Position numbers and translations under genes: made by a program
In this document: piece after piece, positions 23,712 to 26,505 of the stretch
Layout: every line of letters begins with the position of its first letter
Position numbering within the stretch: position 1 is the first letter of the stretch
Source: Indioceanicola profundi
GTDB lineage: Bacteria; Pseudomonadota; Alphaproteobacteria; Azospirillales; Azospirillaceae
DNA: 64,000 bases
Assembly: GCF_003568845.1 (NCBI RefSeq)
Contig: NZ_CP030126.1
Span: forward strand, 1,639,001-1,703,000
Direction of reading: 5' to 3'
Notes under the pieces: model-generated
Databases searched by the model: none
The model's input: the letters and a program-made list of their open reading frames with translations, nothing else
What the model was told of the DNA's origin: nothing

Positions 23712-25085
23712 TTATCCTCGCTTCCAGCTCGTCCCCTGCGGTCCGTCCTCCAGGATGATGCCCTGGGCGGCCAGATCGTTTCGGATGCGATCCGCCTCGG
23801 CGAAGTTCTTCGCCTTGCGGGCATCCTTGCGGGCCTGGATGGCGGCTTCGATGGCGGCTTCGTCCAGCCCGCCGGCACCCGCCGTGGTCCAGCGGAACCA
23901 GGTCTCCGGCGGGTGCCCCAGGAACCCGAACAGCCCGCCAGCGGCCTTCAGCGCGGCGGCCGCCTCCAGCTTCTTCGCCGGGTCCTGCTCCCGGTGGAAG
24001 GCCCCCGCCAGCTCATGTATCTGGCTGATGGCCAGCGGTGTATTCAGGTCAGCCTCCAGCGCCGACAGAACCTCCGCCGGCACATCGGCCTCCTGCACCG
24101 TATCCAGCCCGCGCAGGACACCGTACCAGCGGTCCAGCGTCTGCTTCGCCTGGGCGATCTTCTCCTTGGTGAAGTCCAGCGGCTGGCGGTAATGGGCGCT
24201 CAGCAGGGCCAGCCTGATGGCCTCCCCCGGAAACTCCTCCAGCAGCTCCCGCACCGTGTAGAAGTTGCCCAGGCTCTTGGACATCTTGTCGCCGGCGATG
24301 GTCAGGAAGCCGGAATGCATCCAGTAGTTCGCCATCACCGCGGTGCCATGGGCGCACCGGCTCTGGGCGATCTCGTTCTCATGGTGCGGGAAGATCAGGT
24401 CCAGCCCGCCACCATGGATGTCGAACACCTGCCCCAGATGCTGCGCCGACATGGCGGAGCACTCGATATGCCAGCCTGGACGGCCGCGGCCCCAGGGGCT
24501 GTCCCAGCCGGGCTCCCCCTCCTTGGCCGGCTTCCACAGCACGAAGTCGGCCGGGCTGCGCTTGTAGGGCGCGACTTCCACCCGCGCGCCCGCGATCAGC
24601 TCGTCCTGACTGCGGCGCGACAGGCGGCCGTAATCCTGCATGGCCGGCACGTGGAACAGCACATGCCCCTCGGCGGCATAGGCGAAGCCCTTCTCCACCA
24701 GATTCCCGATCATCTCCACCATCTGCGGGATGTGGGTGGTGGCGCGGGGCTCGATATCCGGGCGCAGCAGGCCCAGATCGTCCATGTCGGCATGGAACTG
24801 GTCGGTGGTGCGGGCGGTGACGCCGTCGATCGGCTCCCCCGACTGCTTCGACCGCTCGATGATCTTGTCGTCCACATCCGTGATGTTCCGCGCATAGGTC
24901 ACGCGCGGATACAGATGCTTCAGCAGCCGGGCCAGCAGGTCGAAGGCGCTGAAGGTGCGGGCGTTGCCGATATGGGCATAGTCATAGACCGTGGGCCCGC
25001 AGACATACAGGCGCACATGCTCGGCATCGATGGGGGCGAACGCTTCCTCGGTGCGGGTCAGCGTGTTGTACAGCGTCAGCGCCAT
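23712..25085 (-). CDS. cysS: Cysteinyl-tRNA synthetase
   Basis: The 457-residue class I synthetase charges tRNA-Cys. It has [15 protein letters not shown] (zinc Cys plus the HIGH-type motif HIGN), the zinc ligands of HIECSAM and [11 protein letters not shown], and KMSKSLGN. The length is close to the usual 460. The C-terminal anticodon-binding domain ends [11 protein letters not shown]. It begins at ATG 25085 behind CCGGAG. A 30-codon open frame with three consecutive Cys codons lies 44 bp upstream and may regulate it. Confidence 0.97.
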
Positions 25086-25129
25086 GGAAAACTCCGGACG
25101 TCTCTGGCCTGGGAAAAGGGTGCAGCGGC

Positions 25130-25222
25130 TCAGGCGTGCGGACAACAACAGGGGGCATGGGTTCCCCCCTGCTCCCGGATATTCACCAGCCGAATGGCGG
25201 CGATGGCGTGCGCGACGGACAT
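25130..25222 (-). CDS. Putative cysteine leader peptide (30 residues) upstream of cysS
   Basis: ATG 25222 is preceded by AGAGAGAG. The peptide begins MSVAHAIAAIRLVNIREQGG and ends THAPCCCPHA, with three consecutive TGT codons just before its stop. A GC-rich hairpin (CAGGGGG paired with CCCCCTG, plus strand 25147-25169) sits directly before the Cys codons. It ends 44 bp upstream of the start of cysteinyl-tRNA synthetase. By analogy with known amino-acid attenuators and the polycysteine leader ORFs described in mycobacteria, it could sense charged tRNA-Cys. Expression is not shown by the sequence. Confidence 0.55.
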   Translation of the reverse strand: MSVAHAIAAIRLVNIREQGGTHAPCCCPHA

Positions 25223-25329
25223 TCGCTCTCTCTGAACCTGCGCGGTCTCGCCGGAGCGGCGTTCAACCGCCCCGGACCGGCTACTGGTAACAGGCTTTGC
25301 CGCTCCGGTCCACGGTCCAGGCTGCGCCC

Positions 25330-26505
25330 CTATATCTGCGGCGCGTACACCATCTCCGGCTTCGGCAGACCGCGCAGATCGAAGCTGCCCAGGCATTCGA
25401 AGCTGCGGCCGGAGCAGCCGGCGAAGGCCTGGCTCACAACCACTTGCCGCTCGAGCTGCTTGGCAAGATCGAGCATGCGGGCGGCCTGATTCACCGCCGG
25501 CCCGACCACGGTGAAGTCCAGTCGGCGCACCCCGCCGATGTTGCCGAAGGCGACATAGCCCAGATGCAGCGACAGCCCGTATTCCAGCGGAGGCACATCC
25601 GTCGGGCGGACCTCGTTCCAGGCATTCACCGATGCCTCCAGCGTCGCCGCCGCGGTCAGCGCGTGGCCGCAGGCCTCAGCCGGGTTCATCTCCTGCGCCG
25701 GGAAGATCGCCATCATGCCATCGCCCATGAACTTCAGCACCTCGCCCCCGCTCGCCTCCACGGCCGCGCAGGCATGGCCGAACCAGTCGTTCAGGCGCGC
25801 GATCACCGTCCTGGAGATGTTGGCCTGGGTGAAGGCCGTAAATCCGCGAAGGTCGCAGAACAGGATGGCGGCGAAGATGCTGGAATAGTCGCCGCGTCGG
25901 ATCTGCCCGTCGAAAACGCGCAGGCCCGGCTCCCGCCCCAGGTAAACCGACAGCAGGTCGGTGGCGATGATCCGCATCACGCGCGCCTCGACCAGCGGGC
26001 TCAGCGCACGGGCGACCAGCTCCAGCTCCTGCACATTCTCCGACGTGAAGCCGCCCGGCTGCCTTGTGGCGAAACTGATGGCGGCGGTGCGGTCGGCGTC
26101 CCGGAACGGCAGCGGCACGATCAGGTAATCGGTGAACCCTTCCGACCACAGCCGGCGCAGGATGCCCATCTCCATGTCGCCATCGGCGATGCCGGCGCGG
26201 AAAGACTGGCCGGTTTCATCCACCACGCGGACCGGGCTGTAGAGATAGTCCGGATTCTCCTCCATCCCGCGCGGCGCATGGGTCCGGCGCAGCTCCGCCC
26301 CGCGCCGCCATTCCATACCCTGCCCGCCCAACTCGGGATGGATCACCTCCAGATTCAAGGAGACCCGATCCAGCGGATAGGCGTCTGCCAGCTCCGCGCA
26401 GGCCGCCTCGAACAGCTCGGCCAGTTCCATGGCATGCGCACCGCCCAGCATCAGCCAGTCGGTGAAGCCGCGCAGGCGGTCGGTCAGTGGGGCAAGCGGG
26501 CTCAC
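25330..26505 (-). CDS. Class III adenylate/guanylate cyclase with N-terminal sensor region
   Basis: The 391-residue protein starts at GTG 26505 with GGAG upstream. Residues 1-175 form a GAF-like region (LSLNLEVIHPELGG-type strand, DYLIVPLPFRDADRTAAISFAT). Residues about 205-390 are the cyclase homology domain: ILFCDLRGFTAFTQ carries the first metal Asp, GEVLKFMGDGMMAIFP the second, and DFTVVGPAVNQAARM the ribose/transition-state Asn. It should make cyclic AMP (or GMP). It is soluble and stands alone. No effector gene is nearby. Confidence 0.9.
   Translation of the reverse strand: MSPLAPLTDRLRGFTDWLMLGGAHAMELAELFEAACAELADAYPLDRVSLNLEVIHPELGGQGMEWRRGAELRRTHAPRGMEENPDYLYSPVRVVDETGQSFRAGIADGDMEMGILRRLWSEGFTDYLIVPLPFRDADRTAAISFATRQPGGFTSENVQELELVARALSPLVEARVMRIIATDLLSVYLGREPGLRVFDGQIRRGDYSSIFAAILFCDLRGFTAFTQANISRTVIARLNDWFGHACAAVEASGGEVLKFMGDGMMAIFPAQEMNPAEACGHALTAAATLEASVNAWNEVRPTDVPPLEYGLSLHLGYVAFGNIGGVRRLDFTVVGPAVNQAARMLDLAKQLERQVVVSQAFAGCSGRSFECLGSFDLRGLPKPEMVYAPQI

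Follow-up and report, generated by a model that had tools for sequence, protein, structure and literature searches.

Upstream of the cysteinyl-tRNA synthetase gene cysS of Indioceanicola profundi lies a small open reading frame with three consecutive Cys codons, and the question that this locus raises is whether that frame encodes a leader peptide through which the charging of tRNA-Cys could be sensed. The features considered below are collected in Table 1; "the window" is the whole stretch of DNA that was analysed, which is 64,000 nucleotides long. The synthetase gene scores 507.9 bits against TIGR00435 (cut-off 340), and 244 nt separate it from the next gene upstream, which encodes a cyclase domain and lies on the same, minus strand. 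In most Azospirillaceae the place 5' of cysS is held by gltX; here it is held by the cyclase-domain gene.

Reading the frames of the window, we found in this gap the 30-amino-acid ORF MSVAHAIAAIRLVNIREQGGTHAPCCCPHA, which matches exactly the frame described in the initial annotation: it ends APCCCPHA, and its stop lies 44 nt 5' of the cysS ATG at 25085, on the minus strand. The Cys codons occupy positions 25–27 of the ORF, ∼60 nt 5' of the cysS start. The locus thus has the coding feature of Cys-codon leaders in general, a Cys run in a short ORF that lies on the same strand as, and upstream of, a Cys-related gene. Several in-frame starts are available, the ATG at 25222 among them, and the frame remains open upstream as far as an ATG at 25396, within the upstream cyclase gene, and over 181 codons in all. 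As for the ribosome site that the initial annotation had called plausible, the motif AGAGAG is indeed there, but this putative site is weak (−4.4 kcal/mol versus a regional mean of −3.6). A scan for the sigma-70 consensus gave no promoter match upstream of the leader.

Table 1. Position of cysS, its upstream neighbour and the candidate leader elements (window coordinates)
Feature	Positions	Strand	Basis
cysS, cysteinyl-tRNA synthetase, presumed regulated gene	23712..25085	-	TIGR00435 equivalog, PF01406
Upstream gene with adenylate/guanylate cyclase domain, outside the leader	25330..26505	-	PF00211
Leader ORF, 30 codons, MSVAHAIAAIRLVNIREQGGTHAPCCCPHA	25130..25222	-	Reading frame; start, frame and end kept in the nearest relative (G002)
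TGT TGT TGT, consecutive Cys codons	25142..25150	-	Codon reading, chance tests
Hairpin CAGGGGG...CCCCCTG, 3' arm overlapping the first Cys codon	25149..25171	-	Terminator scan (Cys codons as tail); role unsupported
Third Cys codon to cysS; candidate bulged helix UCCGCACGCCUGAGCC / GGCCAGAGACGUCCGGA over the cysS ribosome site CCGGAG	25086..25145	-	Hypothetical

Runs of Cys codons can arise by chance, and their expected frequency was estimated by shuffling. When the 244-nt gap was dinucleotide-shuffled 3000 times, an ORF running from any start to a stop and containing three consecutive Cys codons appeared in 0.07% (0.0007) of the shuffles, and no shuffle out of the 3000 gave such an ORF when only ATG was accepted as the start. 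The choice of codon is also unusual, because the five neighbouring genes use TGC 27 times and TGT twice. Further, the genome (5,374,982 bases) contains the run TGTTGTTGT 27 times; 20 of these sites were read, and only the one before cysS resembled a plausible leader. Each of the other sites read fell within a long frame, ran antisense to a gene or had no leader-like setting, and TGTTGTTGT runs were therefore rejected as a general feature of the genome.

Among relatives, cysS is most similar in G002 (86%), a genome with a leader ORF of 31 amino acids, MTVFTPADPAATRAARSGEGRGAGPCRCPHG, which ends GPCRCPHG and has its stop at −61. Compared with the window leader, the ATG, the frame, the end and the stop are kept and the length is nearly equal, whereas the middle of the ORF has diverged with insertions and deletions. 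Cys codons 1 and 3 are also kept, and codon 2 is CGC (Arg), giving C-R-C; the chance of two of three Cys was 0.002 in the corresponding shuffles. The initial annotation had named loss of the Cys run between preserved flanks as an observation that would speak against a leader, and such a loss has occurred in part, in that the middle Cys is replaced by Arg while Cys 1 and 3 remain. The gene upstream of cysS in this relative is gltX, not the cyclase gene, and no leader ribosome site is recognisable in it. A DNA search with the whole leader in 82 genomes of the family gave no homologue beyond this one, which itself fell below the noise of short matches.

Two other relatives have a Cys-run ORF in a long gltX–cysS gap, neither of which can be aligned with the window leader: MLSMGFQAVHSCCR, ending HSCCR, in G027, and MVRPLPRCCCR in G032. 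The corresponding shuffles gave a chance of 0.14 for two of three Cys in the former (0.038 with ATG only) and of 0.0027 for three of three Cys in the latter. In 40/64 of the Azospirillaceae loci scanned, the gltX–cysS spacing is <60 nt, and these loci therefore have no room for such a leader. The remaining 24 Azospirillaceae loci have 60 nt or more, and there, ATG-initiated ORFs in which two or more of three successive codons specify Cys were found 5 times on the forward strand and 0 times on the reverse. Conservation of the leader among relatives thus amounts to one homologue (C-R-C) and two analogous ORFs in a small sample. Three genomes of the family (G022, G100 and G102; loci L005, L032 and L033) also have a well-conserved 13-codon ORF before cysS, MS(T/A)xRCRPxSSRL, which contains a single Cys.

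A wider survey took in the sequence upstream of cysS at 202 loci, mostly from Alphaproteobacteria, each region being 60 nt or longer. Three consecutive Cys codons in an ATG ORF were found 37 times on the forward strand versus 0 times on the reverse, counts that are not independent, the regions within one family being related, and that include all 28 readable Hyphomonadaceae loci as well as two loci judged artefacts (L132 and L263). When the family sets of the Hyphomonadaceae and Rhodobacteraceae were left aside, 8 forward and 0 reverse cases were counted in 144 regions. In our judgement both artefacts (..CCCW..) are the wrong frame of a different upstream gene. Likewise, out-of-frame reading of gltX (LLPLI) yields false ORFs ending CCR, and MAPKCVCCCR at L145 was rejected as a leader because it is gltX out of frame; L068 looks like a metallothionein and not like a leader.

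In the Hyphomonadaceae, now placed in an order of their own, a Cys-run leader precedes cysS in 28/28 readable loci (L179–L209), for example MSSAAFAYSCCRPCCC, and a conserved element, CAACGSGCCATTAGGGCTG, lies 3' of the stop. These leaders are possibly leaderless, because the ATG often lies ∼10 nt 3' of a TGATAC-like box. The Rhodobacteraceae, our positive control with respect to the published motif, have two or more Cys within three codons at 22/30 loci, and a further family, f102, has paired-Cys leaders before cysS at 14/20 loci. The f102 leaders (L331–L341, L344 and L349) share the conserved end RCC..RI(T/I), as RCC..RITG/A, with the stop 60–65 nt before cysS, and their end, ATTACCGGCTGA, is similar to that of the Rhodobacteraceae leaders. 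Further possible Cys leaders before cysS were noted at L303 (G317; ..VDVLCCCA) and L279 (G223; MTCRCCRKNTTESPA). Separately, a Roseovarius locus (L103, 935–1034, minus strand) matched Rfam RF02510 (PYLIS_3, the pyrrolysine insertion sequence of mttB) at 44.3 bits (cut-off 38), which probably reflects an mttB-like gene rather than a true pyrrolysine insertion.

At the level of RNA, the stable hairpin CAGGGGG / CCCCCTG that the initial annotation had placed before the TGT codons is present, but folds of the leader RNA are no more stable than those of shuffled sequences, and the hairpin sequence is altered in G002. In a terminator scan of 25000–25500, the only terminator-like site was this hairpin, the Cys codons forming its tail, and no terminator with a T run was found between the Cys codons and cysS. 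We rejected the hairpin as an attenuator element: it is unconserved, and its geometry is awkward, with RNA polymerase still on the Cys codons when the terminator forms. The candidate bulged helix would pair UCCGCACGCCUGAGCC, whose first base is the last one of the third Cys codon, with GGCCAGAGACGUCCGGA, which includes the cysS ribosome site; both segments are among the best conserved blocks between the window and G002. The arms of this candidate masking helix, UCCGCACG / CGUCCGGA, show almost no covariation, as judged from only two sequences, and its energy is not better than that of shuffles (P 0.07–0.22 in the window and 0.76–0.89 in G002). An Rfam 15 search of this region and of four loci where a cysS leader is known or likely gave no leader family, and neither the window nor the Rhodobacterales loci had a family match at the leader. 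A covariance model built from 16 Hyphomonadaceae leaders (R1) matched Hyphomonadaceae only, and not the window, other Azospirillaceae or the Rhodobacteraceae. The role for the hairpin and the RNA refolding switch envisaged in the initial annotation are thus unsupported.

That the ORF is spurious, an open frame in a G+C-rich gap that holds TGTTGTTGT by chance and resembles G002 through ordinary DNA conservation beside a conserved gene, is in our judgement unlikely. An open frame of 181 codons is common in G+C-rich DNA, the ribosome site is weak, the leader has no promoter match upstream, the single homologue has lost one Cys, and the gltX ORFs ending CCR demonstrate that false positives of this type exist. 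However, the shuffling value of 0.0007, the independent Cys-run ORFs in two more relatives and the 37 forward versus 0 reverse cases in the 202 regions argue against a chance frame, and G002 keeps the start, the stop and Cys codons 1 and 3 although the middle of its ORF has diverged. We regard it as improbable that the hairpin and GTTGTTGTCC are a weak intrinsic terminator of the upstream cyclase gene, the Cys codons being merely its T-rich tail, even though no other terminator-like site was detected in 25000–25500 and this one lies ∼160 nt past the cyclase stop at 25330. The equivalent tail in G002, GTCGCTGTCC, is too poor (3/8 T), yet Cys codons 1 and 3 and the frame are kept there, and the gene upstream of it is gltX. 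Such a terminator would, moreover, halt transcription just before cysS unless cysS had its own promoter further down.

A third possibility is suggested by the motif uORFC-8-2 (Brewer et al. 2021, RNA Biol, PMC8632094), for which 145 examples were reported in Rhodobacterales, every one of them before cysS. Besides tandem Cys codons, usually at positions 14–15, its members have two stems and end in a U run; ribosome-mediated attenuation responding to charged tRNA-Cys has been proposed for them (PMC8632094). The tandem Cys codons, the gene and their position before it would fit genuine membership of this motif here as well, with transcription attenuated at an intrinsic terminator. We nevertheless consider such membership very improbable, because there is no T-run terminator between the Cys codons and cysS, the Cys codons are at positions 25–27 and not at about 14–15, and the Hyphomonadaceae leader model has no match in the window.

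Overall, the ORF is probably a cysteine-sensing leader peptide gene of cysS, at whose TGT codons ribosome pausing would raise cysS expression. This reading is drawn from the ORF itself, its position, its low probability by chance, its conservation in G002 and the Cys-run ORFs at the same place elsewhere. The central proposal of the initial annotation, a Cys-codon leader ORF before cysS, is supported by the likeness of APCCCPHA to GPCRCPHG and by the recurrence of Cys-run ORFs in other alphaproteobacterial lineages. Support for the leader is good at the coding level and lacking at the RNA level. In the scheme that we propose, the leader peptide gene within the cysS mRNA would report on the charging of tRNA-Cys: a shortage of Cys-tRNA(Cys) would make a ribosome pause on the three TGT codons, ∼60 nt 5' of the cysS ATG, and this pause would increase cysS expression, which is the weakest step. 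Translation of the leader, pausing and the rise in cysS are all steps that we infer. In the most economical, translational version, a ribosome held on the Cys codons would cover UCCGCACGCC and so block its pairing with the cysS ribosome site, GACGUCCGGAG; the helix UCCGCACGCC / GACGUCCGGAG masking that site is purely hypothetical.

To our knowledge, control of a tRNA synthetase through the charging of its own tRNA and a leader peptide is unusual in Proteobacteria, and a Cys-codon leader before cysS has been described from one order. The present case, together with the Hyphomonadaceae, family f102 and some Azospirillaceae, suggests that tuning of cysteine charging in this manner is widespread in Alphaproteobacteria. 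More speculatively, Cys leaders of cysS may have arisen or been reworked repeatedly in this class, with a translational output (unmasking of the ribosome site) in the lineage of the window, unlike the transcription termination proposed for Rhodobacterales; we offer this broader scenario as a tentative one that is possible but doubtful.

Among known systems are the trp, his and leu leader attenuators of Proteobacteria, in which codons for the amino acid under control follow one another towards the end of the leader ORF and of which a terminator/antiterminator pair is the defining part. The window ORF shares the codon run near its end, but no terminator/antiterminator pair was found at this locus, and here a tRNA synthetase is the target. 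In mycobacteria, polycysteine leaders attenuate genes (PMC9031893); Canestrari et al. (2020, Mol Microbiol; cited in PMC9031893) reportedly described leaderless short polycysteine ORFs that act in cysteine-responsive attenuation. Like the window ORF, these are small upstream ORFs with Cys codons in a row; the mycobacterial ORFs, however, are leaderless and precede other operons, whereas the window ORF precedes cysS.

The Hyphomonadaceae leaders are likewise Cys-run ORFs before cysS, with the stop 75–86 nt upstream (for example MFVPASVLCRPCCCCR at L185), but they are shorter, mostly of 16 codons, have strongly conserved RNA (CAACGSGCCATTAGGGCTG) past the stop, and gave a covariance model that misses the window; the set of Brewer et al. 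may already include Hyphomonadaceae. Like the uORFC-8-2 examples, the present ORF is a short uORF that starts with ATG, contains tandem Cys codons and immediately precedes cysS; it differs in its 30 codons with Cys at 25–27, in having no terminator between the ORF and cysS, in the absence of alignable sequence and in belonging to another order. The hint at novelty in the initial annotation is partly mistaken: tandem-Cys uORFs before cysS were published in 2021 for Rhodobacterales (PMC8632094), whereas our literature search found no report of a Cys leader of cysS in Azospirillaceae. The window leader thus probably represents a known type of cysteine-sensing leader in a family, the Azospirillaceae, that is new for it.
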